This document shows, one piece after another, positions 31,529 through 51,001 of a stretch of 51,001 nucleotides of DNA (positions within the stretch are counted from its first letter, which is position 1; the number at the start of each line of letters is the position of its first letter). The translations under genes were made by a program, and so were the position numbers. Origin of the DNA: Candidatus Thioglobus sp. REDSEA-S12_B1 (GTDB lineage: Bacteria; Pseudomonadota; Gammaproteobacteria; PS1; Pseudothioglobaceae); assembly GCA_001628405.1 (NCBI GenBank), contig LURN01000056.1, forward strand, positions 1 through 51,001. The letters run 5' to 3'. The notes under the pieces are model-generated. The model was not told where the DNA came from and did not search any database. It saw nothing but the letters and a program-made list of their open reading frames with translations.

Positions 31529-32062
31529 TTAACTCTTTGATTGCTTAGTAAGTTTCTCCATCGTACCGAGCATAGTTCTTAAACTGTCTTTGGTAGTTTC
31601 AAAATCATCACTAGTTAATTCAGATACTGCCAAATTTTCAATCTCGTGAAATTTAGGGAAGACTTCTTCCATCAGATTTTCACCTGCTTGAGTAATATGG
31701 ACAACAACACGTCTACCGTCATCTGAGTGGGGCTCCTTTCTGCAGTAACCATGCTTTTCAAGGGTGGTCAAAATACCAGTCAATGTACTTTTTGCAATGC
31801 CGGCATTCCTTGCTAAATTAGCAGTCTCAAGGTCTCCCCAAACCCACAAAACCCACATCACAACAAATCCAGAAAATGATAGATTAAATTCTTTCAGAAC
31901 TTGATTTTCTGAAAAGTTTCTAAAGATAGATGTAAATCTAAAAGCATTAGAGACAACCGAGACTGACCTACCATATAGGCCAACAGAGATAAGATGTTGC
32001 TTGGCTTTTTCTTCAGCTTTTGAAAGCTTTGGATGGTCCTTGTTATTAGTACTTTTTTTCAT
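31529..32062 (-). CDS. MarR-family transcriptional regulator
   Basis: Winged-helix regulator. With the ATG at 32062 it has 177 residues and begins MKKSTNNKDHPKLS. An upstream ATG at 32110 would overlap the preceding gene by 43 bp and is less likely. The DNA-binding part (about 80-140) reads LARNAGIAKSTLTGILTTLE then HSDDGRRVVVHIT, the MarR wing. It is probably co-transcribed with the acetoacetate-decarboxylase-like gene. HpaR-type MarR proteins repress homoprotocatechuate genes, and related palindromes stand at several promoters of this block. I infer that this protein is their repressor and that a pathway compound is the inducer. Confidence 0.88.
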   Translation of the reverse strand: MKKSTNNKDHPKLSKAEEKAKQHLISVGLYGRSVSVVSNAFRFTSIFRNFSENQVLKEFNLSFSGFVVMWVLWVWGDLETANLARNAGIAKSTLTGILTTLEKHGYCRKEPHSDDGRRVVVHITQAGENLMEEVFPKFHEIENLAVSELTSDDFETTKDSLRTMLGTMEKLTKQSKS

Positions 32063-32067
32063 TATTA

Positions 32068-32868
32068 CTATGTCAAATTTGATCTTTTTAAGGTTGTACC
32101 ACCTTTCCAAGAGACCCCTACTTGACGATAGTATCCCTTAATTAACTCCTCTGGTGAAAGTAATTGAAACTCTTCAACTGGTGAATTAAAAAAATCAATT
32201 TCAAAAGAGCCCTGAAAGGTTAGCCCAATCTCTGCATCATAACCTGACATTGTCACAACTTCATCAAGGCTATCTTTGCCATCGCACTCTATCGAGGGCA
32301 TCCATCGATTATGAACCATCGGTAATGCGTTGACAAAGCCGGCATGGTCTGACTCGCTCTCAATCGTGAATTTAGCCTGAATCAGTCGATGATCATAGGC
32401 TGCTAGAGTAGCCCCAAAAGTGCCGCCTTGCTCAAGTCGCGGACCTGCCTTACCAACAGTGGTAGGCCTAGTTAAATGAATTGATCCAATTTTTTTAGGA
32501 TAGCCTTGAAATTGGCCACGCATAACAGCGTAGTCTTTATCAACCCAGATATAGACGCAACGTGAGTATGTTTTTCCCATAAACTTGCACCTTACGACAA
32601 AAAATACTTCTTTATATTGAGCCCTCATAGGATCTAACAATTCATTAAAGTTATCGCTACAACTCTGCCAGTCAGCCCAAATTACCGCAACAGCTCCAGG
32701 ATCCTCATCAGCTAATTCAAATCCATCAGGCAAAAGCTCAGCAACGCGATCAGGATTTGTTCTATACTCAAGCGTCAAGAGAGTTCCAGAGTAGTGCCAA
32801 GGAACATTGGGAAGCAGAGACGAAATACCAGTTGATGTCCTGGGAAACATAAAACCTTTTATCGACAT
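32068..32868 (-). CDS. Acetoacetate decarboxylase-family enzyme
   Basis: A 266-residue protein of the ADC superfamily. The catalytic lysine pair is present in GYPKKIGSI (Lys125-Lys126), where the first Lys forms the Schiff base and the second lowers its pKa in acetoacetate decarboxylase. SRCVYIWVDKDYAVMRGQF leads into it. Family members decarboxylate or hydrate 2- or 3-keto acids and also include aldolase-dehydratases. The substrate is therefore open, and a breakdown product of the ring-cleavage route is a reasonable guess. It is divergent from the HpaG-like operon with shared operators between. Confidence 0.82.
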   Translation of the reverse strand: MSIKGFMFPRTSTGISSLLPNVPWHYSGTLLTLEYRTNPDRVAELLPDGFELADEDPGAVAVIWADWQSCSDNFNELLDPMRAQYKEVFFVVRCKFMGKTYSRCVYIWVDKDYAVMRGQFQGYPKKIGSIHLTRPTTVGKAGPRLEQGGTFGATLAAYDHRLIQAKFTIESESDHAGFVNALPMVHNRWMPSIECDGKDSLDEVVTMSGYDAEIGLTFQGSFEIDFFNSPVEEFQLLSPEELIKGYYRQVGVSWKGGTTLKRSNLT

Positions 32869-32898: not shown

Positions 32899-32931
32899 AT
32901 ATTATATAATACATTCGTTCGTACCCAAATG
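32899..32931 (-). promoter_or_regulatory. Operator and minus-strand promoter of the ADC-like/marR unit
   Basis: On the minus strand TTGGGT (32923-32928) and a TATAAT about 16 bp further on form a promoter reading toward the ADC-like gene. The operator-like sequence CATTCGTTCGTACCCAAATG (32912-32931) covers its -35. Its core TTCGTACCCAAATG recurs at 32986-32999. This is the expected layout for an autoregulated MarR gene. Confidence 0.55.
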
Positions 32932-32949: not shown

Positions 32950-32999
32950 TTTACTAAGTTTAATTTCATAATATAATATATTCATTCGTACCCAAATGA
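32950..32999 (+). promoter_or_regulatory. Promoter and operator of the hpaG-P450-GS-ALDH operon
   Basis: TTTACT (32950-32955) and TATAAT (32972-32977) are 16 bp apart. The operator-like TCATTCGTACCCAAATGA (32982-32999), with palindromic ends TCATT/AATGA, begins 4 bp past the -10 and covers the predicted transcription start. A repressor bound there would block initiation. An AAGGA ribosome-binding site precedes the ATG at 33017. Confidence 0.6.
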
Positions 33000-33907: not shown

Positions 33908-33910
33908 ACT

Positions 33911-35197: not shown

Positions 35198-35231
35198 TAA
35201 TGAGTAACCAACTAAAAAGGATAAAATTAAG

Positions 35232-36518
35232 ATGAAAGATTACAAAAGAATTAGAGTGCTCTTCTCGGATCATCTCGGTCTTGCAAGAGGAAAATATCAA
35301 CCAACAAACACTGCAGCTGGTGGTGAAGCAAAGTTCTGTATCAGTCTTTATGGGCTTACCTATGATAAACAACTGTTGCCTGCCCCAGGCAGCGGTTTAT
35401 TGGAGGGCTTACCTGATGTAGTTGCGAAATACAAAAAAGAGGATATTCTCCCTTCATGGGAAGCGGATACCGGTATTGTGATTCCTGATATCGAATTCAA
35501 TGGAGAGCCTCTAGCGCACTGCGGCAGAAATGTATTAAAAAAGACCATTACGCAATTTGAAAAAATAGGCCTAACTCCTTATGTTGGGATAGAGCTTGAA
35601 GCATATGTGTTTGAAAAAGACAATGATGGCAATTGGGTTCCTTATAACACGCCTGGAGCCTACGTATATGGAACAGGAGCAAAAGTTGATCCTGCTGGCC
35701 TGATTGATGAAGTGTGGCTGCAAGCTGAAGCCTGCGGGATTGAGTTAGAATCATTTAATTCAGAATTTGATTCACCACAGTTTGAGCTTACTTTAAAGTA
35801 CGGAAAGGCCCTAGAAGCAGTTGATCAAATCTTTTTATTCAAAACAATGGCCAAAGAAATTTTTGAACAAAAGGGTTATCTATTAAGCTTCATGCCTAAG
35901 CCTTTATCGGCAAATGGTGGAAGCGGGATGCATATTAACTTTAGTTTTGACAATAAAAAAGGTAACAATGCAATATATGACAAATCTGCCAATGATGGAT
36001 TATCAAATATTGCGAAAAAATCTATCTCTGGATTAATTCAACACCACGAAGGGATGGCGGCTTTGGTTGCTCCAACTGTTAACTCCTATCGTAGGTTATT
36101 ACCAGCAAGCCTCTCAGGATATTGGGCAAATTGGGGGTATGATCATAGAGGGGTAACAACTAGAATCCCAGATGACCGTGGGGCACTCTCGAGGATTGAA
36201 TTTAGGATGCCAGATTGTGCGGCTAATCCTTATACTGCAGTAGCTACAGTTCTTCAAGCAGCAAAATTAGGGATAGAGAATGACTACGAGTTACCTGATG
36301 CGGAAACTCAAGATTGTCTAGAATCTCAAAGTACAGAAAGACATGTCCCAGACAATCTGGGGATGGCACTGGAAGCCCTCAATGCTGATAAAGCTCTTTG
36401 TGAGGCAGTAGGTCAAGAATTGGTGGATAACCATACAGCCATTAAGGAACAAGAATGGCAAGGATATATCTCCCACACAACAGACTGGGAATTTGATCAA
36501 TATCTCAAGTATATTTAA
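35232..36518 (+). CDS. Glutamine-synthetase-like ligase (probable gamma-glutamyl-amide synthetase)
   Basis: A 428-residue GS-fold protein lacking the longer layout of GlnA. The catalytic core has GIELEAYVFE (metal ligands) near residue 118, NGGSGMHINFSF near 231, APTVNSYRRL near 279 and RIEFRMPDCAANPYTAV near 316. No adenylylation-loop Tyr motif of GlnA is seen. GS-like proteins embedded in amine-catabolism clusters join glutamate to an amine through an amide bond (for example gamma-glutamylanilide and gamma-glutamylisopropylamide synthetases). Placement in a P450 operon, with a class I amidotransferase at 40565-41305, supports that role over nitrogen assimilation. Confidence 0.85.
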   Translation: MKDYKRIRVLFSDHLGLARGKYQPTNTAAGGEAKFCISLYGLTYDKQLLPAPGSGLLEGLPDVVAKYKKEDILPSWEADTGIVIPDIEFNGEPLAHCGRNVLKKTITQFEKIGLTPYVGIELEAYVFEKDNDGNWVPYNTPGAYVYGTGAKVDPAGLIDEVWLQAEACGIELESFNSEFDSPQFELTLKYGKALEAVDQIFLFKTMAKEIFEQKGYLLSFMPKPLSANGGSGMHINFSFDNKKGNNAIYDKSANDGLSNIAKKSISGLIQHHEGMAALVAPTVNSYRRLLPASLSGYWANWGYDHRGVTTRIPDDRGALSRIEFRMPDCAANPYTAVATVLQAAKLGIENDYELPDAETQDCLESQSTERHVPDNLGMALEALNADKALCEAVGQELVDNHTAIKEQEWQGYISHTTDWEFDQYLKYI

Positions 36519-36527
36519 ATTTAAGCG

Positions 36528-37991: not shown

Positions 37992-38020
37992 AAACTTATT
38001 ATTTAAAGAATAAAAAAATT

Positions 38021-38347
38021 ATGGCATTAGTTAAATACATTTTAGAAGACAGCTCCGAAGTAACTATTGAGGCCCAGGTAGGCCAAAATTTAATGCAACT
38101 TGCAATAGAGAATAATGTCGAAGGAATTGAAGGTGCATGCGGTGGCTCTTGTATGTGCGCCACATGCCATGTTAAGGTTGAATCTGTGAATGGTGCTGAA
38201 CTTGGGGAAAGGTCTGAGATGGAGCTAGATGTTCTGGAAATGGAAATTGATGAGGTCGCATCAAATAGTCGACTGGGATGTCAAATTGAAATCAATGAGA
38301 AAATAGAATCTATCACTGTTCGCATCGAATCTATTCAGAGTATCTAG
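38021..38347 (+). CDS. [2Fe-2S] ferredoxin, adrenodoxin/putidaredoxin type
   Basis: A 108-residue electron carrier. The cluster cysteines have the adrenodoxin spacing C-x5-C-x2-C in ACGGSCMCATCHVKV with a fourth Cys in SRLGCQIEI. (One further Cys inside the loop is not needed for the cluster.) This ferredoxin type serves class I P450s. It sits directly upstream of the matching reductase, in the operon with the P450. Confidence 0.94.
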   Translation: MALVKYILEDSSEVTIEAQVGQNLMQLAIENNVEGIEGACGGSCMCATCHVKVESVNGAELGERSEMELDVLEMEIDEVASNSRLGCQIEINEKIESITVRIESIQSI

Positions 38348-38348
38348 A

Positions 38349-39560
38349 ATGTCAGTTGTCATTATTGGAGCTGGACATGCGGGAACAACTGCAGCCGCAG
38401 CCCTAAGAAAACTTGATAAGGACATTAAAATTTCACTTGTCTCTGAAGAAGGAAGTCCTCCGTATCAGAGACCTCCTCTTTCAAAAAAAACGATTTTTTC
38501 TGTTACTCAAAACTATGATCTAATTTTAGGAAAAGATTTCTATAATAAAAATAACATCCAGCTGAATTTAAATTCGGCTGTTGAAGAAATAAATCCTATC
38601 CAAAGTTACGTTAGATTAAATTCAAATAAAATCATTGAGTATGATCAGCTCATAATCGCAACTGGATCTAAAGGTTATAAGCTCAATATCCCTGGTAGCG
38701 AGATAGCCCAAAAGCTATATTCAATTAATGATGCTCAGAAACTAGCTAAATCAATTGCCAAAGCAAAAAAAGTGGCCGTGATTGGGGGCGGTTTTATTGG
38801 CTGTGAAATTGCTTCCGGAGCCCAAAAACAAAACAAAGAGGTAACCTTATTGGAGGCTGGGCCATCAATATTGGGCCGCTCAGTTGCACCTATTTTTGCA
38901 GAATCTGTTTCAAAAATACACCAATCTCAAGGCATCAATATTTTGACAAACTGTAACGCTTTATCTATTAATGCTAGGGGTATTGAAACAGCCTCCTCAT
39001 TTGTACCAGCAGATTTAGTTGTCGCAGGTATTGGAGTTACCCCAAATATTGAACTTGCCTCTAAGGCTAACTTAGATATTGATAATGGAATCTTGGTTAA
39101 TAAATTACTTCAAACTTCAAATGAAAATATCTTTGCGATTGGCGATATTGCAAACTTTCCATTTCAATCTGATTCTGGACGCCTAAGATTAGAGTCTATT
39201 CAAAATGCTAATGAACAAGCCAAGATAGCTGCAAAAAATATCATAGCGCTGAGGAATAATCAAAAACTTCAAAGCTACTCACCGATACCTTGGTTTTGGT
39301 CTGATCAAGGTGATTTAAAGTTACAAATGGTTGGAGTTGGAAAATTAAATGCAAAACACCATGTTCTCGAAAATCAAACTGCTGGAACTTTGACTGTCCT
39401 CCACTTTGAAGACGGTCAATTAGTTGCTATTGATACTCTCAACCATGGGGTAAATCATATTTGTGGAAGAAAACTTCTTTCAAATAAAAAACCTATTTTG
39501 TTGGATGACATTGAAAGATTTAAAGGGGATTTAAAAAGCCTAGTTAAGGAGCTAAATTAA
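38349..39560 (+). CDS. Ferredoxin reductase, putidaredoxin-reductase type
   Basis: FAD- and NAD(P)H-dependent reductase of 403 residues. The FAD-binding VVIIGAGHAGTTAAAALRK is at the N-terminus, PPYQRPPLSK at residues 37-46, the second Rossmann motif VAVIGGGFIGCEIA near 143 and FAIGDIANFP near 260. These match CamA-like oxidoreductases. Its start is one base after the ferredoxin stop, so the two are certainly made together. It completes the three-component P450 system and is the last plus-strand gene of the operon. Confidence 0.94.
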   Translation: MSVVIIGAGHAGTTAAAALRKLDKDIKISLVSEEGSPPYQRPPLSKKTIFSVTQNYDLILGKDFYNKNNIQLNLNSAVEEINPIQSYVRLNSNKIIEYDQLIIATGSKGYKLNIPGSEIAQKLYSINDAQKLAKSIAKAKKVAVIGGGFIGCEIASGAQKQNKEVTLLEAGPSILGRSVAPIFAESVSKIHQSQGINILTNCNALSINARGIETASSFVPADLVVAGIGVTPNIELASKANLDIDNGILVNKLLQTSNENIFAIGDIANFPFQSDSGRLRLESIQNANEQAKIAAKNIIALRNNQKLQSYSPIPWFWSDQGDLKLQMVGVGKLNAKHHVLENQTAGTLTVLHFEDGQLVAIDTLNHGVNHICGRKLLSNKKPILLDDIERFKGDLKSLVKELN

Positions 39561-39578
39561 CAAATAAATGTTTGCTAA

Positions 39579-40451
39579 TTATTTCCATCCGCTTGCTGGA
39601 CGATCAAACCAAAGATGGACCTGGCCGGTACCAGTTGCATTTTCATAGTCGCCAAATTGCTGACCTTTTGCTTTGCAATCAACTCCTCCAATTGCCTCTG
39701 CCATTATTAAATAGTGGCCAAATTTTCCTTCTGGAGAAAACTGATAATAATCCTCCATTCCATCATAGACTGATTTATGATCCCCATTTTTTAACCACTC
39801 TATTCTTGCCTCATCTGCCTCTCTAGCCTCTCTAGTAAGAACATGAATAGGGTCAGAGGCTTCATGTTGCTCTAGCTCTCCTAGTGGCCAAAACTTATGA
39901 CTCAACCCACCACTTGCTAAAATTACTACCCGCTTGTTAGATTGCTCAATCGCTTCTCTCAATCCCCTACCAACTCTAATAAATTGCTCTTTTTTAGCAG
40001 TAGCGCAAATACTCATTGAGAGCCATTGCTCATCGCCTTGAAGGAACTCGAGCATATTGATTGTTGGATAATGAATTGGTAAATGCTCATTATTATTTGA
40101 AGAGCAACGAACACCATTATTGCTTACACATTCGGCAATATTGTTCGCTAACTCAGGATTTCCATTAATATCAAATGGAATACTATCCATTGTCCGAGGT
40201 AGCTCATCTGAAGTGTAAAAGCCTTTGCGCCTTTTATGACTAGATACAATAAACTCTACAATAGTGAACCAATGCGTATCAATTACAATCACTACATCTG
40301 GTTGAAGTGGCTCAATTACTTTTTTTCTAATCTCATTCAAACCAGGCACCAGAGAAATTTCTTTGCCGTCATTTAGAGCATATCTTTGCTCTTTATTCAT
40401 CATGATTGTTGGGGCGTGTGATAAAAGACCAGCGCCGACTATTTCACCCAA
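39579..40451 (-). CDS. HpaD-like class III extradiol ring-cleavage dioxygenase (LigB superfamily)
   Basis: Fe(II) dioxygenase of 290 residues resembling E. coli homoprotocatechuate 2,3-dioxygenase (HpaD). Likely iron ligands are His12 (LLSHAPT) and His60 (IDTHWFT), with an acidic ligand near residue 250. Further matches to HpaD are GFYTSDELPR, FDINGNPELANNIAE, LASGGLSHKF and ATGTGQVHLWF. It would open a catechol ring, plausibly 3,4-dihydroxyphenylacetate or a relative. It is convergent with the P450 operon (18-bp gap), with its own promoter and a perfect operator palindrome upstream. Confidence 0.87.
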   Translation of the reverse strand: MGEIVGAGLLSHAPTIMMNKEQRYALNDGKEISLVPGLNEIRKKVIEPLQPDVVIVIDTHWFTIVEFIVSSHKRRKGFYTSDELPRTMDSIPFDINGNPELANNIAECVSNNGVRCSSNNNEHLPIHYPTINMLEFLQGDEQWLSMSICATAKKEQFIRVGRGLREAIEQSNKRVVILASGGLSHKFWPLGELEQHEASDPIHVLTREAREADEARIEWLKNGDHKSVYDGMEDYYQFSPEGKFGHYLIMAEAIGGVDCKAKGQQFGDYENATGTGQVHLWFDRPASGWK

Positions 40452-40494
40452 AATATTTCTCCAAAATTAATAATTAAGATAACAATATTTAAAT

Positions 40495-40539
40495 TTGTTC
40501 GTATACGAACAATATACTATAATCATAATTATTAGTCAA
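40495..40539 (-). promoter_or_regulatory. Promoter with perfect 18-bp operator palindrome upstream of the hpaD-like gene
   Basis: TTGTTCGTATACGAACAA (40495-40512) is a perfect palindrome. On the minus strand TTGACT (40539-40534) and TATAGT (40521-40516) lie just upstream of it, so the palindrome covers the predicted transcription start, although the spacing between the two hexamers is short. The core GTTCGT-N2-ACGAAC is shared with the tctC and livK-like promoters. Confidence 0.75.
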
Positions 40540-40564
40540 TAAAGCTATCCCTTTAAATAATTAT

Positions 40565-41305
40565 TTATTTTTCTGCATTAGAAAAGTTAGATTTGAAAAA
40601 ATCCATAATCCATTTTGACCAAATACTTGAATCTGACTTTCCAATATCAATACAAGTATTTGCTTTCTTAATATCTTTTTCGCTCAATATTGGTCTTGTC
40701 ACCTCAAGAAACTTATACATTGCACGCTTGGGTTGCTCAGGATGACCTTGCAAGCAGAGAATATTATCTCCAATAGTATATGCATAGTATGGATAATCTT
40801 CAGAGCTAGCAAAACTTAAGGCGTCTTTTGGTAGCTTAGTAACTCTTTCCTTATTGAAATGAAATAAGTCTGTAGTCGTAATCTTTTTTTTCATCCAAGG
40901 TAATTTTTTACTGATGTTTAAAGAAAAGCTCCCAATCATCCAACCTTTTTCATTGCTTTCAACAACACCGCCAAAGTGTTTCGCGATTAACTGATGGCCA
41001 AAGCAAACGCCAACAATGGGTTTATTTTTTTTATGTACTTTGCCAACAAACTCTGAAAGCATTTTTATCCATTCATCTTTATCATGAACACTTACAGGAC
41101 TACCTGTCAATAAGTACCCATCATAACTTTCAATATTTTCAGGGAACTGATACTCAGAAACATAAAAAATATCAAACTTTCCACTAGCATTTTCAGGTTC
41201 TAAAAGGCTTACAAATTTCTCACCATCAGTAATACCATTGTCATCATTCCAATGCATCTTGGGGACTGAGTCTAGAATCGCAATTGATATTGAATGATTA
41301 TTCAC
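40565..41305 (-). CDS. Class I glutamine amidotransferase-like hydrolase (probable gamma-glutamyl amidase)
   Basis: A 246-residue stand-alone GATase domain. The nucleophile Cys101 is in GVCFGHQLIAKHFGG, and His188 and Glu190 are in QGHPEQPKRA, so the triad is complete. It resembles the GMP-synthase glutaminase domain but has no synthetase partner. In gamma-glutamyl-amine pathways such proteins (for instance the second protein of aniline clusters) hydrolyse the gamma-glutamyl amide. With the GS-like ligase in this block, that is the favoured role. Its start is adjacent to the sulfatase stop. Confidence 0.83.
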   Translation of the reverse strand: MNNHSISIAILDSVPKMHWNDDNGITDGEKFVSLLEPENASGKFDIFYVSEYQFPENIESYDGYLLTGSPVSVHDKDEWIKMLSEFVGKVHKKNKPIVGVCFGHQLIAKHFGGVVESNEKGWMIGSFSLNISKKLPWMKKKITTTDLFHFNKERVTKLPKDALSFASSEDYPYYAYTIGDNILCLQGHPEQPKRAMYKFLEVTRPILSEKDIKKANTCIDIGKSDSSIWSKWIMDFFKSNFSNAEK

Positions 41306-42871
41306 TTACCATCTACCAATGATTATGCCGAATTTTTCATCGGTCTCAGGGGAGCGCTTATAAAGCTCATCTAAAGCAACCACCGTCCTCTGTTTTCTGT
41401 GCCTTAACCAATAAAATAATTGACTTTCAAAATCGACTAATTTTTCTGAATGATTTTCACTTTCACCTAAATCAATAAACTCATTCGGGTCATTTAACAA
41501 GTCATAGAGTTGTGGACGGTACCCTTCCCAATAGATATATTTCCATTGATCATTTTTAATCATATAACCTCGGCATTCATATGGGTGCTTATCAAGAATT
41601 TGTCTAGCACCTCTATCACCGTAGTCTATTTCAGCAAAAACAGTATCTCTCCAAGCCAAATTTTCACCATAGAGCAATGGAACAAGTGAGCGCCCCTCCA
41701 TTCTATTGGATGCAAATGAGCCATCCATCATATCAACAATAGTTGGAACAATATCAACAGACTCGGTCATCCTCATTTCGGAAGTACCACGCAATTCATT
41801 AGGCATTTCTGGATCAACAATGATTAATGGAATTCTTAATGAAGCCTCATGAAATAAATCTTTCTCACCAAGCCAATGATCTCCAAGATAATCCCCATGA
41901 TCACTGGTAAAAATAATCGAAGTATTCTCACTCAAATTATTTTTATCTAAAAAAGACATCAGCCTTCCAATATGGTGATCAATTTCGCTAATTAATCCCA
42001 TATATGTTGGAATAACATGTCTACGTTTTTTTTCATCGGAGTAATTTTGAGAGTATTCAAGTTTTTGAAAAGCTGAAAAGACAGGGTGAGGGTTTTGTAT
42101 TTCAGACTCATCCTTATTAACCTTTATTACATCTGAATCTTCATAGATATTGTGATATGGTGCAGGAGCCAATAATGGCCAATGCGGGTTAAAGTAACTT
42201 AAATGAAGGCACCAATTTTTTTTAGGATTTCTCGAGGAAATATAATCCATAGCTCGATCAGTAAGAAATGCTGTCTCAGAATGTTGCGCATCAATATCAG
42301 AAGCTAAGTGGGCGTTTCTCATTTCCCATCCACTATATTGAACGCCAGATTTTGTAGCGGTATTGGCAGCATTTTCCCAAGGGTTGTGCATTTTATAACC
42401 CTTAGACTCTAAGTAATTGTTATAACCTAAACCCTCTTTCAGGATTGGCTCAGGATATAAACCATAATACTGCTCAAAAGGTGTAAAACCATTATCATGC
42501 CTTTCTTGAGCTACTTGCGACTCTACAGGGATATCGAGACGATTTAATGACTCCTTATTTGGTCGACCTTCACTCTTACCAACAACATGCGCCTCACCAC
42601 CAAGTTCACGAACATAGTCACCCAAAGTAACTTCATCTACTCTCAATGGGTCATCATTAGCCATCACTCCATGACTCGACATGTAACGACCTGTGTAAAA
42701 ACTGGCTCTACTAGGGCCACATAATGGGGCATTGCAATGGCTGTTTTTAAATAACATACCATTCTTAGCAAGCATATCTATATTGGGTGTTTTAATGCTT
42801 GGATGGCCTGTACAGCCAAGATAGTCATACCTTAACTGATCACACATAATAAACAGAACATTTTTTTTCAT
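41306..42871 (-). CDS. Sulfatase / phosphonate monoester hydrolase-like enzyme
   Basis: Alkaline-phosphatase-superfamily hydrolase of 521 residues. The formylglycine signature C-x-P-x-R is present as CGPSRASFYTGR (Cys51, Arg55). Metal ligands appear in IMCDQLRYD at the N-terminus and FTSDHGDYLGDHW near residue 310. There is no signal peptide, so it acts in the cytoplasm. General layout and length are close to phosphonate monoester hydrolases and cytoplasmic arylsulfatases, and sequence alone does not separate sulfate from phosphonate esters. The Cys needs conversion to formylglycine by an enzyme not encoded here. It sits between the transporter and the amidotransferase, which suggests that the imported compound is an ester. 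Confidence 0.85.
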   Translation of the reverse strand: MKKNVLFIMCDQLRYDYLGCTGHPSIKTPNIDMLAKNGMLFKNSHCNAPLCGPSRASFYTGRYMSSHGVMANDDPLRVDEVTLGDYVRELGGEAHVVGKSEGRPNKESLNRLDIPVESQVAQERHDNGFTPFEQYYGLYPEPILKEGLGYNNYLESKGYKMHNPWENAANTATKSGVQYSGWEMRNAHLASDIDAQHSETAFLTDRAMDYISSRNPKKNWCLHLSYFNPHWPLLAPAPYHNIYEDSDVIKVNKDESEIQNPHPVFSAFQKLEYSQNYSDEKKRRHVIPTYMGLISEIDHHIGRLMSFLDKNNLSENTSIIFTSDHGDYLGDHWLGEKDLFHEASLRIPLIIVDPEMPNELRGTSEMRMTESVDIVPTIVDMMDGSFASNRMEGRSLVPLLYGENLAWRDTVFAEIDYGDRGARQILDKHPYECRGYMIKNDQWKYIYWEGYRPQLYDLLNDPNEFIDLGESENHSEKLVDFESQLFYWLRHRKQRTVVALDELYKRSPETDEKFGIIIGRW

Positions 42872-42889
42872 ATGAGCATTCTTAATGAA

Positions 42890-44368
42890 TTAGTTTATTT
42901 TTTTGTACTGTCTCCATACTACCCAAAAATGGATTGATAATGCGATTACAATTATCGCAAAAATCGTTCCTGAAATAGGTCGATTAACATAGTCAAAAAT
43001 AGTATCAATACGTGCCTGACTAGCGCGGAATTTTTGTTCCATGATATTACCTAACACCATTCCAAGAATAATCGGCACAATGGGCAAATCAAGTTTTTTT
43101 AATACATAGCCCAAAATGCCAAAAAATGCACACATAATGCAATCAATAAAAGAATTCCTGAGAGTGTATACCCCAACAAAAGAGAGACCTAAAATAGTGA
43201 TCCCCAAAAAACGTTGAGGTATTTGTATTATTCTTAGTAGAGATTTTGTTGCAAATAATAAGAAAACCATCACAATAATGTTAATTATGAACAAACTCTC
43301 ATATAGACCATAGACAAAATCAAGGTTATTTTCAAACAAATCTGGACCTGGAATAATGCTGTGCACATAAAAGACTGACAACATCATTGCGGTTAATGCT
43401 TCGCCTGGAATTCCAAGCGCTAAAAGAGGTATCATCGCAGCTGCAGGAACTGCATTATTTGCCGCTTCAGCAGCAATGATACCTTCTGGTGCGCCTTTGC
43501 CAAACCGCTCCGGTTTTTTTGAAATACTTCTAGCTATATTGTAAGAAAAAAACTGCGCTAGGAATTCACCTACACCGGGAATTATTCCCATTATGACGCC
43601 CATACTGGCAGAAATTGCAGCAACAATCTTGTATTTAATCAGTCCAAAAAGCCCTTCATGTTTTCCACCCTTTAAACTAGGCATCGGAACTTTTTTGTCA
43701 TTTCCAGTAAGAAGTATTAATGCTTGAGAAACAGCAAACAATCCAAGCAATACGGTAATCAAATCAAATCCGGATAACAGCCATGATTGATCATAAGTAA
43801 ATCGTTTAGTGTATTTAACACTTTCCATTCCTACAGTGCTTATAAACATTCCGAAAAACACTAAAAATCCAGCAATTAAAGTTTGCTTTCGATGAGAAAT
43901 AACAACCAAAATTAGCCCTAATAAAGCTGCCATTAATATATCTCTGGAACCAAATAGTGGTGCTACTTTCGCTATCAAAGAGGTCATAAAAATAAGTGCA
44001 AAAATCGAAAAAATACCTCCAGTGAAAGAAGACCAGTAAGCCAAAGTAATAGCTCGCCTTGCCATATTATTTTTTGTCATACTGTAACCATCATAAGTAG
44101 TTAAAGCATTAACCGGTGTTCCAGGGGTGTTAATTAATATTGCTGGAATTGCACCGCCATACATCGCGGAACCATAAATGCCAAGTAAAACAGTAATACC
44201 AATAATGGGGTCCATACTGTAGGTTGCGGGTAGCAAAATAGCAATGGCCACAGCTGGTCCTACACCTGGAATTGCACCAATAATAACGCCACCTACTGAG
44301 CCAATGAGAATGGCTACCCAGACATCCCATCGAAGGAATATTTCAAAACTTGAGAGAATTACATCCAT
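42890..44368 (-). CDS. tctA: TctA-family transporter large membrane subunit
   Basis: Large permease of a tripartite tricarboxylate transporter (TTT). The 492 residues form about 12 hydrophobic segments. The family signatures GAIPGVGPAVAIAILLPATY near residue 32 and AMYGGAIPAILINTPGTP near 68 are present. A second inverted copy, IIPGVGEFLAQFFSYNIA, follows near 263 with IPGEALTAMM. It is driven by an ion gradient and uses the TctC-type binding protein encoded upstream. Citrate is the type substrate, but TTT systems carry many carboxylates and aromatic acids, so the name does not fix the substrate. Confidence 0.93.
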   Translation of the reverse strand: MDVILSSFEIFLRWDVWVAILIGSVGGVIIGAIPGVGPAVAIAILLPATYSMDPIIGITVLLGIYGSAMYGGAIPAILINTPGTPVNALTTYDGYSMTKNNMARRAITLAYWSSFTGGIFSIFALIFMTSLIAKVAPLFGSRDILMAALLGLILVVISHRKQTLIAGFLVFFGMFISTVGMESVKYTKRFTYDQSWLLSGFDLITVLLGLFAVSQALILLTGNDKKVPMPSLKGGKHEGLFGLIKYKIVAAISASMGVIMGIIPGVGEFLAQFFSYNIARSISKKPERFGKGAPEGIIAAEAANNAVPAAAMIPLLALGIPGEALTAMMLSVFYVHSIIPGPDLFENNLDFVYGLYESLFIINIIVMVFLLFATKSLLRIIQIPQRFLGITILGLSFVGVYTLRNSFIDCIMCAFFGILGYVLKKLDLPIVPIILGMVLGNIMEQKFRASQARIDTIFDYVNRPISGTIFAIIVIALSIHFWVVWRQYKKIN

Positions 44369-44377
44369 AAATTCTGA

Positions 44378-44902
44378 TTAAAAATAAACCATAAAGAATG
44401 TTGACCAGCCGTCTGGTAAATACTCATAGATAGCACCACTGGAAATTTTCACTTTTAATAAAGATTTGAATACCACTACAATTCCAAAAGCTGTTACTAA
44501 ACTAATTATCAACATTGATCGAGTTCGATAACCCTGTCTGATTGTGAGTAAAAAGAAGAAAACCAAAGTTGAAAGAAGATAACCAGCAAGAGGAACAAGC
44601 CAAACATAGAGTAAAAAATAAACAACAAACTCAAGCGGCTTAGCCCAAGATTGTAATTCTTTCAATTCACTCTGAATTCTTCCTTCAATTTTGTAATTCT
44701 GCCAAACCTGTAAACTATAAATCAAACTAAATAAAGCCATCCCAGTAATACAAAAAGTAGGCCAAAGCCTTGGCTGTTTAACTAGAGGGATACCGTCAAA
44801 CCATTTAGTTTGATATGGAATTGATATTAACAAAAAGGATACTAAAAAGAGCACAATAATCACAAAGATTAAATTTCCTACTTGGTATTCATTTTTTTCC
44901 AT
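44378..44902 (-). CDS. tctB: TctB-family transporter small membrane subunit
   Basis: A 174-residue membrane protein with four hydrophobic segments (about 9-27, 48-65, 90-115, 122-145), the pattern of TctB. Sequence conservation is low in this family, and the call depends on position between tctC and tctA. It starts downstream of a strong hairpin that follows tctC. Confidence 0.87.
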   Translation of the reverse strand: MEKNEYQVGNLIFVIIVLFLVSFLLISIPYQTKWFDGIPLVKQPRLWPTFCITGMALFSLIYSLQVWQNYKIEGRIQSELKELQSWAKPLEFVVYFLLYVWLVPLAGYLLSTLVFFFLLTIRQGYRTRSMLIISLVTAFGIVVVFKSLLKVKISSGAIYEYLPDGWSTFFMVYF

Positions 44903-44950
44903 AACAACCCGGACAAGTCATGATTAATCTATTTTATGATAATTAAAAAA

Positions 44951-44980
44951 AAGGAAGGTTTAAACCTTCCTTTTTTTTTA
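44951..44980. terminator. Bidirectional terminator hairpin between tctC and tctB
   Basis: AAGGAAGGTTTAAACCTTCC (44951-44970) extends two more bases to a perfect 22-bp palindrome. A-rich sequence lies on its left and nine T (44971-44979) on its right, so it can end transcripts in either direction. In the minus direction it lies about 20 bp after the tctC stop. It probably lets most transcripts end after the binding-protein gene, with read-through to tctBA. Confidence 0.85.
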
Positions 44981-44995
44981 TTTAACTTTACTTTG

Positions 44996-45934
44996 TTATA
45001 GAAGACCGCCAATAGTAGCCATTGTCTCTCTATCCTTATTGATCTGAGACTCTGAAGCTTCAGCATCCATCCAGTAAATTAAAGCGCCAGTATCTGCTGC
45101 TACTTGCTGAGCTCTGTCACTTAGCATAGATTTCTTAGCAACAGCTATGATTTTGTCTTTAACATCTTGAGATGTTCCTGATTCTACAAATAAGCCGTTC
45201 CATAAAAATATATCAAGATCAGATATCAACTCACCAATAGCTGGCGTGTTTGGAACTTTAGAGATTCGGTCATTAGTTACAGAAACCAACACCTTGACTT
45301 CGTCTAAACATGGAAGAATAAGTTGAATCGTTGTATTAATTACATCAGCATCACCTGAAGCCAATGTATTACAGTCCAGCATATCAAAAGCAGCATCTGA
45401 ACCCCATTCAAAGCCCATCACTTTAGCTGCAGCTTTTGTTACCTGTGTAGGTGTTAGTGGATCACCAAAGTGCCCCAATGTTACTTTATTGTTCTTAGCA
45501 TAACCTGCTAGTTGAGCCATAGAACTATATGGCGCATCTCCTGAGGTTGCAATTACAAACGGATAAGTTAAAAATATGCCTAGAGGCTCAAAGGTCTCTT
45601 TAGTTAAGCCTTCTATTCCGAGCTCTGGTCCAACCACTGGAACGCCGATTACAAATGAACCGACCATAGAGCCATCTGCATCAGCTGCCGCTACTTCCAT
45701 TGCACCGGGGAATGGTCCACCGCCACCGCCAGGCTTATTGACAACCGCTGCGGCCACACCATACTCTGCCTGAAAATCTTCGGCAATCATTCTAGTTAAG
45801 ACATCTTCCAAATCCCCAGGAGGCCATGGTACAACAAAAGTTACTGGCTTATCGGGATAGTCTGCTTGTGCAACTGGCATGCCTACTAAAAAAGTAGAAA
45901 ATGCAAATAGCACTCCAATTAGTAATTTTTTCAT
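44996..45934 (-). CDS. tctC: TctC-family periplasmic substrate-binding protein (Bug family)
   Basis: Extracytoplasmic receptor of the TTT transporter. Of 312 residues, a Sec signal peptide ends near PVAQADYPD. The family start YPDKPVTFVVPWPPGD follows, with VVNKPGGGGG near residue 65 marking the carboxylate-binding loop region. Bug proteins typically grip a carboxylate group, so the imported compound is likely to have one. A strong AAGGAG ribosome-binding site and a dedicated promoter with two operators precede it. A terminator follows it, consistent with high expression. Confidence 0.93.
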   Translation of the reverse strand: MKKLLIGVLFAFSTFLVGMPVAQADYPDKPVTFVVPWPPGDLEDVLTRMIAEDFQAEYGVAAAVVNKPGGGGGPFPGAMEVAAADADGSMVGSFVIGVPVVGPELGIEGLTKETFEPLGIFLTYPFVIATSGDAPYSSMAQLAGYAKNNKVTLGHFGDPLTPTQVTKAAAKVMGFEWGSDAAFDMLDCNTLASGDADVINTTIQLILPCLDEVKVLVSVTNDRISKVPNTPAIGELISDLDIFLWNGLFVESGTSQDVKDKIIAVAKKSMLSDRAQQVAADTGALIYWMDAEASESQINKDRETMATIGGLL

Positions 45935-45941
45935 TCTTTTT

Positions 45942-46038
45942 TCTCCTTTAAATTAAATTGAATGTCCTTTTATGTAGTTCGTGTACGAACGAATTATAGA
46001 ATACCATAAAATGTGTTTCGTGTACAAACGAATATTTT
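45942..46038 (-). promoter_or_regulatory. Duplicated promoter-operator cassette upstream of tctC
   Basis: Read on the minus strand, this 97-bp segment is nearly identical (about seven differences) to 50240-50336 on the plus strand. It holds TATAAT (complement 45993-45998), an operator GTTCGTGTACGAAC (45977-45990) just downstream of the -10 and a second, TTTCGTGTACAAAC (46016-46029), about 18 bp upstream of the -10. The AAGGAG ribosome-binding site is inside the conserved segment. Confidence 0.85.
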
Positions 46039-46068
46039 GGTTATTTAGTTTTAATAATTTTTTGATAA

Positions 46069-47175
46069 TCATGACCGTGACCTAGCTCGCTCAGGATCAT
46101 AAACTGGTGTCGCTACGATTTCTGCCTGGCCATTTTCTTCCAAAACCAAGTCTAGTTTATTACCGACTATCGCGTTTGCTCGATTGATTCGAGCTAATCC
46201 AAGAAATTTTCCTTCTAGGTATGGTGAAGGAATTGCCATTGTAACTAGACCCACCTTCTTGTTATTATCCATTAATTCAACGCCATCATATTCTCCTTCC
46301 CCCGGCAATAAAACACTAACGATATCTAATGAAGGATTTTTTTGTGCTTTGATTAAAGCATCCTTTCCATGAAAATTATCCTTGTTGAGATCTACTGACC
46401 ATGCCATTCGGCATTCATAAGGAGTCATGGTATGGTCATATTCGACTTCACCCATAATTAAGCCAGCTTCGATACGACACATCATTACACAAGCAGCTCC
46501 AGCAGGCAATAAACCGAGTGGCTCCCCTGCTTCAAAAAGGGCATCCCAGAATGCTTGTGCACTATCTACAGGTAGCATGATTTCGTAGCCGAGTTCTCCA
46601 GTGTAGCCGATTCGGCTAATTTCAACTTTCATGCCGGCCATATCGACATCAGTCATGAAATGATACCAACGAAGCGCATCATTACTTATATCTATGCTTG
46701 TTAGTTTTTGAAGAATTTCTCTGCTTAAAGGCCCTTGAACTGAGAGCTGTGCAAGCTCATTACGACGTTCACGAACCGAGACATTATTTGGACGGTATTG
46801 ATCCAGTAAATCACCAATGATTGGATTTGCTCCAATAATTCGAACAAGTTCAGGGCCATATACAAAAACAGTGCAATCATCAATCATCATACCTGCTTCA
46901 CTTACAACAACACCGTAGGCAATAGTTCCCGGTTTCATCTCTCTTATATCACGCGAAAATATACTATTTACGGTTTGAATTGCGCCTTCACCTTCTACAT
47001 CCCATTTGAGAAGCATAGAAAATTCAAAGGCTGCAGCATGATTACGAGCTGCTGCATATTCAGCACCTGGATCACCCCAAGTTAAGGGCACAGCATAACC
47101 GTAGACATCAATCCATTCGACAACTCCATCAGGATAGGAGGCTGAAAATGGAGTTTGTTTGAGTTCATCTGACAT
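46069..47175 (-). CDS. GcvT-like tetrahydrofolate-dependent aminomethyltransferase/demethylase
   Basis: A 368-residue protein of the GcvT/DmdA/dimethylglycine-oxidase folate-binding family. Visible features are FEFSMLLKWDVEGEGA near the N-terminus, AYGVVVSEAGMMIDDCTVF, ISRIGYTGELGYEIMLP near residue 207 and EAGLIMGEVEYDHTMTPYE. Family members accept a methyl or methylene group on tetrahydrofolate, or demethylate sulfonium and O-methyl compounds. It starts 12 bp after the TMADH-like gene, so it very likely captures the one-carbon unit released by that enzyme. Glycine cleavage itself is unlikely, as gcvH and gcvP are absent. Confidence 0.87.
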   Translation of the reverse strand: MSDELKQTPFSASYPDGVVEWIDVYGYAVPLTWGDPGAEYAAARNHAAAFEFSMLLKWDVEGEGAIQTVNSIFSRDIREMKPGTIAYGVVVSEAGMMIDDCTVFVYGPELVRIIGANPIIGDLLDQYRPNNVSVRERRNELAQLSVQGPLSREILQKLTSIDISNDALRWYHFMTDVDMAGMKVEISRIGYTGELGYEIMLPVDSAQAFWDALFEAGEPLGLLPAGAACVMMCRIEAGLIMGEVEYDHTMTPYECRMAWSVDLNKDNFHGKDALIKAQKNPSLDIVSVLLPGEGEYDGVELMDNNKKVGLVTMAIPSPYLEGKFLGLARINRANAIVGNKLDLVLEENGQAEIVATPVYDPERARSRS

Positions 47176-47187
47176 ATTTAACTCCTT

Positions 47188-49341
47188 TTAATGGTATGGT
47201 TTAACCAATAGAGTCTCAGCATCGAGCTGATAATCTTTTTCTGTCGCATTTAGAAGGCGACGTTCACGAATGAATGGTTTATGTTGATCAGGATTATCTG
47301 AATCAAATTCTCTTGCAAGACGAGTTCCAGAAAAAGTTGCTTGTGCAATGACGCTAGGTGTGTGTGCATCTCCGATTAAATGTATTGACTTAATACCGGC
47401 ATTGGACATGTCATCTGGCGATCCTTGAAGTTGGTCATATAAATCACAATTAGAAGTTTTGTGAGTAACTAACATTACACTATCGTATTCAACAGTCATT
47501 TCCTCACCTTTCCATATATCGACAAGGGTAGCATTTCCATTTTCAACAGCTACTGCAATATGGTGATTAATCGTGGTTACTCCGAGCTCCATAAGTCGCA
47601 TTAACATTCTCTGCTCTTCCAAAACCAGACGGAGGTATGGACCAACGGTATCTCCATAAGTGGCGTAAGTTACTTCATGGCCATTTTCTGCAATAAGTTG
47701 TGCCATAGCTGAACCCATATAGTATGGGTCATTGTCGATTACTAATACTCTTTTTCCGAGTTTTTTCCCGTGTACACAATATTGCTCTGGAGTGCAAATT
47801 TCAGGCTTTGAAGCATTAGCACCAGCAATATCATCATGAAGCAGTGATGACATACCGGTTTCGTCCCAATTAGAACCTGTTGCGAAAACAATGCGCTCAG
47901 CTCCGCATTCAAGAATATCCTGATAATTAAGCCGATTATTTAAGATAATTTGTACATTAGTTTTTGTTCTGATTTGAGTTTCCCGCCAATCAATAACACG
48001 CTTCCAAGCCCCAAAACCAGGTAGTTTGGAAACCCAACGTAAATGCCCGCCTATTTCAGCTTCAGCTTCAATTAGGTGAACAGTATTATAACCTCGAAGT
48101 CCTAGAGTCATTGCACACTCAAGCCCGGCAGGACCTGCTCCAACAACAACAATTGGAAGATCAGGATTATCTGTTGGAACATACTTTTCAGGATGCCAAC
48201 CCCTGCGATATTCTTCACCAGAAGTTGGATTCTGAGTACACCAAATCGGAGGTCCGCCTTTTTCCCATCGAGAAACACAGATATTGCAACCAATACATTC
48301 CCGGATATCATTGTATAGACCTTCCTCTATTTTTTTTGGTAGAAATGGGTCGGCTATAGATGGACGAGCTGCCCCAATAATATCGCATTGACCTGAATTT
48401 ATTGCTTTAATCATGACCTCTGGATCTGTAAAGCGACCAACATTAATAACTGGTTTTTTAGAGGCTTTTTTTGCATGTTGGGTATACAGGGCTTGATGAT
48501 TTGAATCAAAGAACCGGGAAGATCCTGCATCCTCTCCCCAATTTAGGGTGCCAATATTGATATCCCAATAATCAACTAGATCATCCATTGCCTTGATGAA
48601 AGCTACGCCCTCATCTTCAGCTTTTATTCCCAAATCTCCATGACCAAAAGGTTCAGGCAAGGTATCAATTGGAAAGCGAATTCCAATTGCACAGTCATCA
48701 ATTTCTTCTCTCATCATTTCTAACAATTCTCGAGTAAAACGACACCGGTTTTCAAAGGAACCACCATATTCGTCAGTACGCTTGTTGTGAGTACGGTACA
48801 AGAAATGCTGAGGTATTGTCGAAAGACCAACATAAACAGTCAGCAAATCAAAACCTGCTGCTCTTGCTCTTAAAGCTGCATCCACATGCTCACGTTGTAT
48901 TTGTCGAATTTCTTTAATTGTCATTGCCCTAGCACTTGCCATAGGTTCAAATTCATGTGGTATTTGCGAGGCTGCTCGAGTTGGTTCACGGGTTTCTGCA
49001 TTAAAGCCAAAGGAAGTTGCATGGGTAAGTTCCACTCCAGCAAGACCCCCATGAGCGTGGATACTATCGCACATCAAAGATAAATTCCTAACGTCACCCT
49101 CATCAATAATCTTACTTCCAACCCATGGATGAATATCACTATCATGTGTTATAAAACAAACTTCTGTAAAAACTGCTCCCCAACCACCTTCAGCTTTCAT
49201 TCCTCGAAAAGATGCCTGCATTCCTGGCTTATCCGACCCAGCTCCATTACAGTGAGGTACTTGCCAGAATCTATTTTTAAGAACTTTAGGGCCAAGTTTG
49301 ATTGGCTCAAAAAGAATATCGTGCCGCTTCTCTCTCCCCAT
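47188..49341 (-). CDS. Trimethylamine dehydrogenase-like iron-sulfur flavoprotein
   Basis: A 717-residue protein with full-length similarity to trimethylamine dehydrogenase (TMADH). It has an FMN barrel (starting HDILFEPIKLGPKVLKNRF), a [4Fe-4S] site at Cys349, 352, 355 and 368 (the same 3-3-13 spacing as in TMADH) and a C-terminal dinucleotide domain (VVVGAGPAGLECAM near 396). By recalled TMADH numbering, two of three residues of the aromatic bowl that binds trimethylamine are kept (Trp268, Trp359). The third, Tyr60, is Val61, and His172 is Leu173. Asp271 is kept. The substrate is therefore probably another N-methylated amine. No tmm gene or ETF genes are nearby. It is divergent from tetR. 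Confidence 0.88.
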   Translation of the reverse strand: MGREKRHDILFEPIKLGPKVLKNRFWQVPHCNGAGSDKPGMQASFRGMKAEGGWGAVFTEVCFITHDSDIHPWVGSKIIDEGDVRNLSLMCDSIHAHGGLAGVELTHATSFGFNAETREPTRAASQIPHEFEPMASARAMTIKEIRQIQREHVDAALRARAAGFDLLTVYVGLSTIPQHFLYRTHNKRTDEYGGSFENRCRFTRELLEMMREEIDDCAIGIRFPIDTLPEPFGHGDLGIKAEDEGVAFIKAMDDLVDYWDINIGTLNWGEDAGSSRFFDSNHQALYTQHAKKASKKPVINVGRFTDPEVMIKAINSGQCDIIGAARPSIADPFLPKKIEEGLYNDIRECIGCNICVSRWEKGGPPIWCTQNPTSGEEYRRGWHPEKYVPTDNPDLPIVVVGAGPAGLECAMTLGLRGYNTVHLIEAEAEIGGHLRWVSKLPGFGAWKRVIDWRETQIRTKTNVQIILNNRLNYQDILECGAERIVFATGSNWDETGMSSLLHDDIAGANASKPEICTPEQYCVHGKKLGKRVLVIDNDPYYMGSAMAQLIAENGHEVTYATYGDTVGPYLRLVLEEQRMLMRLMELGVTTINHHIAVAVENGNATLVDIWKGEEMTVEYDSVMLVTHKTSNCDLYDQLQGSPDDMSNAGIKSIHLIGDAHTPSVIAQATFSGTRLAREFDSDNPDQHKPFIRERRLLNATEKDYQLDAETLLVKPYH

Positions 49342-49374
49342 GCTATATCTCCTAAATTTATTTTAAAAAAATTG

Positions 49375-49427
49375 ACCGTCAAATGACGGTTATAGAGTAA
49401 TATACTACTTATTAAAACACAAGTCAA
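49375..49427 (-). promoter_or_regulatory. Promoter and TetR-type operator of the TMADH-like/gcvT-like operon
   Basis: On the minus strand TTGACT (complement 49422-49427) and TATATT (complement 49399-49404) are 17 bp apart. Just downstream, ACCGTCA (49375-49381) and TGACGGT (49384-49390) form a perfect 16-bp inverted repeat with a 2-bp spacer, overlapping the predicted transcription start. The divergent TetR regulator is the obvious candidate to bind it. The motif differs from the GTTCGT-type operators. Confidence 0.75.
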
Positions 49428-49484
49428 AAAAAATATTTATTACAACGTACAATAAGATTTTTGTAATTTTAAGAATTTAATCTT

Positions 49485-50132
49485 ATGGCTAAACAACAAT
49501 TCGACTCGTCTCAAAATATTTCGCCAAGGAACTTAAAACGAAAAAGTTCTTTAAAACGCAGTATGGAGATACTTGAAGCGACAAAGCTACTTCTTTCTGA
49601 GCAGGGTTATGATAAGCTTAGTTTGCGAAAGATAGCAGCAATCACAGGAATCCACTTGAAGACTCTTCAACACTACTTTCCTACTAAAGAGATCTTGATA
49701 AAAGCAACACTGGAATATGTCCAATCTTTGTATGAAAAAAAAATTCAGGAGATCTCATCACATTCAACTGATGCTGAAAAAAATTTTAAAAACTATATAA
49801 ATTATCTAGTTGAAGACATCAAAACTATTGAAACAGCTGGATTTTTCTACCAACTCTGGGCAATGGCACATGTTGATAAAAATACCAATAATATAATGGA
49901 ACAAATTTATCAAGCCCACACTGATAGTATTGAAAATTTAATTAAAGCAATTAATCCAGATATGGGTAATCATATGAGAAAACAGCGTGCCGTGATGATT
50001 GCAGCATTAATTGAAGGAATGATGTTATTTCTGGGTTATGGAAAAAAACGCCCTAAAAATACAGCCCATATAGAAAATGAAATTATTGCACTTTGCACTA
50101 ATCTTGCTGTAACTAATGATTCACTGCAATAG
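49485..50132 (+). CDS. TetR-family transcriptional regulator
   Basis: A 215-residue protein. The N-terminal helix-turn-helix (about 25-75) reads ILEATKLLLSEQGYDKLSLRKIAAIT and GIHLKTLQHYFPTKEILIKA, a clear TetR pattern (YFPTKE for the usual YFxxKE). The ligand domain is not recognisable. It is divergent from the TMADH-like operon, with a palindrome between them, and so probably represses that operon. The 210 bp after it hold only the duplicated promoter cassette of the next gene and a 15-codon open frame with no support. Confidence 0.9.
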   Translation: MAKQQFDSSQNISPRNLKRKSSLKRSMEILEATKLLLSEQGYDKLSLRKIAAITGIHLKTLQHYFPTKEILIKATLEYVQSLYEKKIQEISSHSTDAEKNFKNYINYLVEDIKTIETAGFFYQLWAMAHVDKNTNNIMEQIYQAHTDSIENLIKAINPDMGNHMRKQRAVMIAALIEGMMLFLGYGKKRPKNTAHIENEIIALCTNLAVTNDSLQ

Positions 50133-50239
50133 ACACAATTATGAGAAATGCTATTGATGCTCTTTACACTGAAGGATTGACTGTTTAATAACTTCTACTC
50201 TTTCTGAAAAGTCAGAAAAAATATCACAACTGAATCATC

Positions 50240-50336
50240 AAAATATTCGTTTGTACACGAACTATATTTTATGGTATTCTATAATTCGTTCGTACACGAA
50301 CTACATAAAAAGACATTTAATTTAATTAAAAGGAGA
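50240..50336 (+). promoter_or_regulatory. Duplicated promoter-operator cassette upstream of the livK-like gene
   Basis: This is the second copy of the 97-bp segment described at 45942-46038, here on the plus strand. It holds operator GTTTGTACACGAAC (50249-50262), TATAAT (50280-50285) and operator GTTCGTACACGAAC (50288-50301), ending in an AAGGAG ribosome-binding site before the ATG at 50343. The -10 is flanked on both sides by operators, as expected for tight repression. Confidence 0.85.
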
Positions 50337-50342
50337 GAGAAG

Positions 50343-51001
50343 ATGTCAAGAATAAAAAAATTTATGAATTTGGGTAAAGTCATTTCATGCGCGATATTGC
50401 TCAATACACTTACAGCAACCTCAATTGCTGGAGATGATCTAGTTATAGGAGTTCCAACTAATTTATCAGGACCAATTGGAGGTGCTGATCATATGGACTG
50501 GCTGAATGGAGTTAATCTGGCTGTTTCTGAAATAAATGCAGCTGGAGGAGTTAATGGAAGAGCGCTTCGTGTTGAGGTAGTCGATACAGATATTTTGACA
50601 CCAGAGGGAACAGTTGCTGCCTTTCAAGCATTAATTGAAAAAGGCTCTCATGCTATAGCTTCTTCATTTGTCTTAATTCCACAGGTTGCTATGGATGCAG
50701 CTGCTTCAAACGGAATTCCATACATGCATGGTAATACTTCAGTTGTCTCATTGGAAATGGTTCGCGATAATCCTAAAAAATATCGCAATATTTTTCAAAT
50801 TGATGGTGATGAAACTTGGTATGGAAGTGGCTTAATCAATTACCTTGACTCAATGAATAAAGACACTGAATGGAACCCAATAAATAACAAAGTGCATATT
50901 GTTCAAGGGCAAATAGCATACACTCAGACTGTATCAAAGTCTGCACAAGAGGCTATTGCTGCATCTCCAAATTGGGAACTCGCTAAAATCACTGATATTG
51001 C
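50343..51001 (+). CDS. LivK-type ABC transporter substrate-binding protein (partial, 3' end beyond window)
   Basis: The first 219 codons of a periplasmic binding protein of the branched-chain amino acid/amide (type I) family. A signal peptide ends near TATSIAGDD. The mature start DLVIGVPTNLSGPIGG and the early motif GVNLAVSEINAAGGVNGRALRVEVVD are characteristic, then ASSFVLIPQVAMDAAASNGIPYM. Family members bind amino acids, amides, urea or aromatic acids. It has the same promoter cassette as tctC, which suggests a second importer in the same regulon. Permease and ATPase genes would be expected downstream. Confidence 0.9.
   Translation, partial: MSRIKKFMNLGKVISCAILLNTLTATSIAGDDLVIGVPTNLSGPIGGADHMDWLNGVNLAVSEINAAGGVNGRALRVEVVDTDILTPEGTVAAFQALIEKGSHAIASSFVLIPQVAMDAAASNGIPYMHGNTSVVSLEMVRDNPKKYRNIFQIDGDETWYGSGLINYLDSMNKDTEWNPINNKVHIVQGQIAYTQTVSKSAQEAIAASPNWELAKITDI

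Follow-up and report, generated by a model that had tools for sequence, protein, structure and literature searches.

Promoter propagation in prokaryotes was reportedly described by Matus-Garcia, Nijveen and van Passel in 2012. The copying of a promoter is usually inferred from the finished repeats. As far as such cases are described through the literature cited in PMC5906472 and PMC11111574, a near-identical promoter is found before non-homologous genes of one genome, with the similarity confined to the upstream sequence. In regulatory switching, or horizontal regulatory transfer (Oren et al. 2014, in the form in which PMC9944727 cites it; Piggy, PMC5890482), a non-homologous intergenic region takes the place of the original one before a conserved gene. 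For the control of such promoters, a comparable system is the HpaR/MarR regulation of homoprotocatechuate catabolism in E. coli W and Yersinia; in Yersinia, the two sites bound by HpaR have 4-bp arms with 4 bp between them (PMC7180172).

The locus presented here is part of the window, the whole stretch of DNA that was analysed (51,001 nucleotides). The window is an entire contig, ending inside a livK-type gene, of a draft genome of 77 contigs (G000). It comes from a marine bacterium of the sulfur-oxidiser type, in the Ca. Thioglobus/SUP05-like genus, for which 29 genomes were compared. The genus relatives referred to below are AG-390-E17 (G003), AG-319-K19 (G018), SCGC AAA007-O20 (G021), AG-464-B02 (G008) and a Station ALOHA Thioglobus MAG (G017).

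Like the described cases of promoter propagation, the window genome carries a near-identical promoter before two non-homologous genes, tctC and livK, and the similarity is confined to the region upstream. Unlike the cases in the literature cited above, the state before the event is kept in five relatives and both junctions are visible; moreover, the copy is inverted and comprises two operators and a ribosome-binding site. As in regulatory switching, the intergenic region before a conserved gene appears to have been replaced by a non-homologous one, the gene itself (tctC) being 98% identical. In contrast to the cases of switching as cited, the operator type is retained, and the new region also stands before another gene of the same genome, livK, so that the likely donor is known. 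The locus adds a further case of promoter propagation or regulatory switching, both known already, and is unusually well bracketed by relatives: a tidy example, not a new mechanism. The original, the donor and the replaced promoters are all visible in close relatives, with junctions at base level. Because all three promoter states can be seen, the loss of the leader and the step from one operator to two are directly testable. What is observed directly is the pair of copies, the native tctC promoter of five relatives, the junctions, and which genomes have the operator, tctC, MarR and TetR; the explanation built on these observations, a replacement of the tctC promoter by the inverted livK promoter with an HpaR-like MarR protein as the likely repressor, is given a probability of roughly three in four (0.74).

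Two near-identical cassettes before tctC and livK

The pair and the genes behind it comprise the following features:

45942..46038, minus strand: cassette copy before tctC; TATAAT at 45993-45998, ribosome-binding site at 45942-45949; 91/97 identical to the livK copy
46016..46029, minus strand: op1 of the tctC copy, GTTTGTACACGAAA, with two mismatches to GTTCGTRYACGAAC
45977..45990, minus strand: op2 of the tctC copy, GTTCGTACACGAAC
50240..50336, plus strand: cassette copy before livK; TATAAT at 50280-50285, ribosome-binding site at 50329-50336; orthologous to the livK promoter of G003 (94/98)
50249..50262, plus strand: op1 of the livK copy, GTTTGTACACGAAC, with one mismatch
50288..50301, plus strand: op2 of the livK copy, GTTCGTACACGAAC
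44996..45934, minus strand: tctC, a TctC-type binding protein (PF03401); first gene of tctC-tctB-tctA-sulfatase-GATase, present in 6/29 genus genomes
50343..51001, plus strand: livK-type binding protein (PF13458, Peripla_BP_6), truncated by the contig end

In pairwise alignment, the two copies match without gaps at 91 of 97 positions, and their longest identical run is 45 bp. The coordinates of the preliminary description are correct, but its "about seven" differences have to be lowered to 6 over the 97 bp. Inside each copy, the order is op1, a 17-bp AT-rich spacer, TATAAT, op2 and the ribosome-binding site AAAGGAGA; as had been described, the repeat spans the promoter, both operators (two palindromes) and the ribosome-binding site. 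TATAAT and the operators are kept in both copies, op1 of the tctC copy with its two mismatches. The identity also covers the spacer and the ribosome-binding site and is thus not limited to the two operators. A weaker similarity reaches ~30 bp further upstream, to 46060 and 50217, respectively, and a few A-rich bases at the start codons of tctC and livK align as well, with a small offset. The two genes are indeed unrelated (TctC, PF03401, and Peripla_BP_6, PF13458), and the similarity ends at the coding region: on the tctC side, the sequence past the ribosome-binding site is that of native tctC, 98% identical to G003 up to 45949.

A search of the 1.6-Mb window genome recovered the second copy with E = 2e-37 and gave just two copies genome-wide. 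Among 58 relatives, a single copy was found, in G003 (one of 28 congeners), and none elsewhere. With these copy numbers, a dispersed repeat or mobile element (MITE, REP) was rejected; the general repeat against which the preliminary description had cautioned did not emerge from either search. The tctC copy matches positions 5446-5575 of locus L033 in G003, in inverted orientation and at 88%.

Within the 29 genomes of the genus, livK is limited to G000 and G003, and no close relative was found at E 1e-90 in the 369 genomes of the class that were searched. In G003, two ABC ATPases, two permeases and a DMF amidase-like gene follow downstream of livK. Judged by synteny with G003, the livK operon of the window genome probably runs on from the contig end onto another contig, C37.

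The tctC promoter in the relatives and in the window genome

All five relatives with the tctC operon (G003, G018, G021, G017 and G008) keep a native tctC promoter, which is absent from G000 alone; there, the region upstream of the orthologous gene is non-homologous. The native promoter has a TATATT or TATACT -10 box, followed directly by one operator, GTTCGTATACGAAC (with one mismatch in G008), and then by a leader of ~100 nt. In G003, this promoter and the two-operator livK promoter stand back to back, and the cassette is found before livK only.

When the conserved native leader was folded and compared with shuffles, a terminator-like hairpin with a T run behind it emerged in G021 (-17 kcal/mol, z -2.9); the fold is moderate in G018 (z -2.0) and not distinct from shuffles in G003 (z -0.8). 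In the G021 leader (L034 6794-6901), as well as in those of G017 and G008, a hairpin AACGTCTC...GAGACGTT is formed around a second hairpin and followed by T8. This structure looks like a transcription attenuator, which would be gone from the window genome through the promoter swap.

Between G000 and G003, the tctC region is 98.3% identical over 40727-45949. At the ribosome-binding site, this match breaks off and gives way to the inverted cassette. This stop in the homology, with the inverted livK promoter in the place of the native one, argues that a promoter was copied. The closest match is between the livK promoters of G000 and G003 (94/98), while the tctC copy shares 91/97 positions with the livK copy of G000 and 90/98 with the livK promoter of G003. 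Most likely, the native tctC promoter was overwritten by a copy of the livK promoter, the direction being from livK to tctC. With just 6 differences in 97 bp, the age and the direction of the copy are not firmly fixed, and the tctC copy could stem from an unsampled donor.

The preliminary description had proposed that a regulatory module was copied, and the 91/97 pair before unrelated genes, which is no general repeat, bears this out. Its further suggestion, that the copy placed a second importer under the same control, has to be abandoned: the tctC promoter of the five relatives already carries the same operator core. As the native promoter already had this type of operator, tctC was not newly recruited. 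The swap changed the form of the promoter, from one operator and a long leader to two operators and a short leader, not the membership of the regulon.

The ancestral tctC would have had its own -10 box, one operator GTTCGTATACGAAC at the transcription start and a leader of ~100 nt. In the proposed scenario, livK was acquired nearby, and its promoter contained two operators for the same repressor. In the lineage of the window, ~130 bp from the gcvT stop codon to the tctC ribosome-binding site would have been overwritten by the inverted livK promoter, with the shared AAAGGAGA as the junction on one side and a point just past the gcvT stop codon on the other. Both importers would now start at near-identical promoters, and a repressor, most likely the HpaR-like MarR protein encoded at 31529-32110, would sit on both operators, op1 near -35 and op2 at the start site, and come off in the presence of an inducer arising in the catabolic pathway. 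The putative route is short-homology recombination, by gene conversion or template switching, or else the import of an already switched allele.

The surroundings of the pair have been rearranged as well, and two features are needed here:

46065..50139: gcvT-TMADH-tetR segment between the copies, 89% to G021
50137..50226, plus strand: 90-bp scar after tetR, put together from pieces of the last livK-operon gene (3' end) and of the gene that follows it, X, with the intervening sequence lost

The interval from tctC to X, a Mur-ligase-like gene, contains remnants only in G018, TMADH in G008 and G017, gcvT-TMADH-tetR in G021 and the livK operon in G003, whereas G000 has the two modules together. Seen across these genomes, the region around tctC is a site of repeated rearrangement. 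The scar pieces are fused at a shared CTGAAGGA. In G018 (L035 2785-2940), derived bases of the second scar piece are common with G000, and the 3' end of gcvT is also retained. From these shared bases and this remnant, G018 probably lost both modules from a G000-like arrangement, yet it retains the native tctC promoter. Through the scar, short direct repeats probably lie on either side of the livK operon in G000, and this operon could be lost by way of them.

Over most of the stretch that was compared, identity to G003 (L033) lies mostly at 75-86%; it is 90-96% around marR-adc and rises to 97-98% at the tctC operon (40727-45949) and at livK (50217-51001). This difference suggests a recent exchange of the tctC/livK block between species. 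The switch could have taken place in situ or could have been imported with the exchanged block; both fit.

An overwrite within one chromosome, between livK and tctC promoters that lie ~4 kb apart and inverted and are guided to each other only by the palindromic operators and the ribosome-binding site, is a rather doubtful version of the replacement. If it were true, repressor operators would be recombination handles that spread promoters within a regulon, and a leader with a terminator-like hairpin would have been traded for a second operator.

Distribution of the operator and candidate regulators

The further operators and the regulator genes of interest are:

40497..40510: single operator GTTCGTATACGAAC before a LigB/HpaD-like dioxygenase gene; conserved in G018, G021, G017 and G008
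10361-10374 of contig C37 (G000): exact operator in the divergent promoter of class III aminotransferase and glutamine-synthetase-like genes; one mismatch in G003
31529..32110, minus strand: MarR/HpaR-like regulator (PF01047; TIGR02337 at 1e-13, below the cut-off), best candidate for binding of the operators
32918..32929: operator-like TTCGTACCCAAA in the adc-marR / FAA-hydrolase divergent promoter
32985..32996: second operator-like TTCGTACCCAAA in the same adc-marR / FAA-hydrolase promoter; conserved in all six genomes
49485..50132, plus strand: TetR/BetI-like regulator (PF00440; BetI-like below the cut-off), in 2/29 genus genomes (G000, G021)
49375..49390: palindrome ACCGTCAAATGACGGT in the TMADH/tetR promoter; ACCGTCAATTGACGGT in G021

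The exact palindrome GTTCGTRYACGAAC is present in six of the 29 genomes, precisely those with the tctC operon, and absent from the remaining 23. In the whole genome of G000, it is found in op2 of both cassettes, before ligB (40497) and in the C37:10361 promoter, and in no other place. No excess that would indicate a wider regulon was seen genome-wide when two mismatches were allowed (10 sites, against 20 in the reversed control). By this distribution, the operator is confined to the tctC/MarR-linked system. Its position at the predicted transcription start implies repression.

The MarR gene is present in the same 6/29 genomes as the operator and the tctC operon. This common distribution makes its product the best candidate regulator of the cassette operators, a suggestive assignment; it is weak evidence of regulation, since tctC, MarR and operator all belong to a single linked cluster (split over two contigs in G003). 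The adc-marR promoter contains TTCG-N4-CGAA/CAAA sites, which are kept in the six genomes and are similar, not identical, to the cassette operators. In 80 loci of Rhodobacteraceae, no relative of this MarR was found near tctC at E 1e-15.

As in the HpaR system (PMC7180172), there are two sites with 4-bp arms 4 bp apart, one of them near the transcription start, and HpaD-like dioxygenase, FAA hydrolase and HpaR-like MarR genes lie in one cluster. Unlike in that system, the arms are TTCG/CGAA instead of TTAA/TTAA, the HpaR match is below the cut-off, and the binding by MarR is a prediction. The TIGR02337 equivalog score is 51 bits for a cut-off of 121, and the protein is hence named HpaR-like and not HpaR.

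The main rival to MarR is a GntR-FCD (CsiR-like) regulator encoded near gene X (L058 2971-3639), which is an unlikely candidate. It is present in all six operator genomes, and its gene lies ~7 kb from the C37 operator; against it, the protein also occurs in 12 more genus genomes without the exact operator, and the gene adjoins csiD, while the exact operator was not found in the gntR-csiD promoter.

A tempting assignment would be the TetR protein encoded between the copies, in which case 46038-50240 would be one self-contained regulatory unit. The two copies lie 0.1-4 kb from the tetR gene, and palindromes as long as the cassette operators are bound by TetR proteins. That this TetR reads the cassettes is nevertheless very improbable, as its orthologue is found in G000 and G021 alone and the operator also in G003, G008, G017 and G018 (of these TetR-less genomes, two are less than 90% complete, G003 91% and G017 95%). 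Furthermore, a different palindrome, ACCGTCANNTGACGGT, is found in the TMADH/tetR promoter and is conserved along with TetR in G021. TetR probably controls the divergent TMADH promoter and not the cassette, which corrects the tempting assignment.

Other origins and roles of the pair

An old duplication of one ancestral promoter, or convergence, could be put in the place of the recent overwrite. The core of the native tctC promoter and that of the cassette are alike at 28/34 positions (local score 38, the highest of 300 shuffles being 36), but most of this likeness is the operator itself, and the 97-bp identity includes a spacer and a ribosome-binding site that are not in the native promoters. 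G000 alone departs from five relatives, and the native promoters of G003 and G018 disfavour this origin, which has little to recommend it.

The probability of an assembly or amplification artefact is just as low. Whole-genome amplification is a known source of inverted chimeras, the draft genome consists of 77 contigs, and the contig end falls inside livK. However, the copies differ at 6/97 positions and in their flanks, so neither can be a technical duplicate of the other. The tctC copy lies exactly between gcvT and tctC, as synteny with G021 predicts, and the scar at 50137-50226 partly shares derived bases with an independent genome, G018.

The preliminary description had raised an inversion of the TMADH-gcvT-tetR segment; that the copies are inverted repeats which flip it as a phase switch is the least probable reading. 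It recalls invertible promoter elements of phase variation in having inverted repeats around a segment, and the inverted orientation with a 45-bp identical run is enough for some RecA-dependent exchange, but the repeat pair exists in one genome only (G000), the orientation of TMADH relative to tctC is identical in 4/4 genomes with both (G000, G021, G017 and G008), no recombinase gene lies between the copies (the genes are gcvT, TMADH and tetR), and, as both promoters are inside the repeats and face outward, tctC and livK would still have equivalent promoters after an inversion, which would turn neither of them on or off. In invertible promoter elements, by contrast, a recombinase, promoters placed otherwise and a second orientation would be expected.

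Some of the surrounding genes point to catabolic functions. Window positions 46069-49341 encode a trimethylamine-dehydrogenase relative (1djn, E 1e-208) and a GcvT-like, demethylase-type protein. At the end of the livK operon of G003 (L033 10792-13104), a protein closely related to the large subunit of DMF amidase is encoded (6lvb, E 2e-177). Together, these three proteins could serve the breakdown of a dimethylamide or dimethylamine. The substrate of another catabolic set in the window (32068-41305), with P450, glutamine-synthetase-like and GATase genes, is possibly an aromatic amine handled as a gamma-glutamyl adduct; this set, accompanied by the TctC importer, recurs in many Rhodobacteraceae (loci L096-L168).
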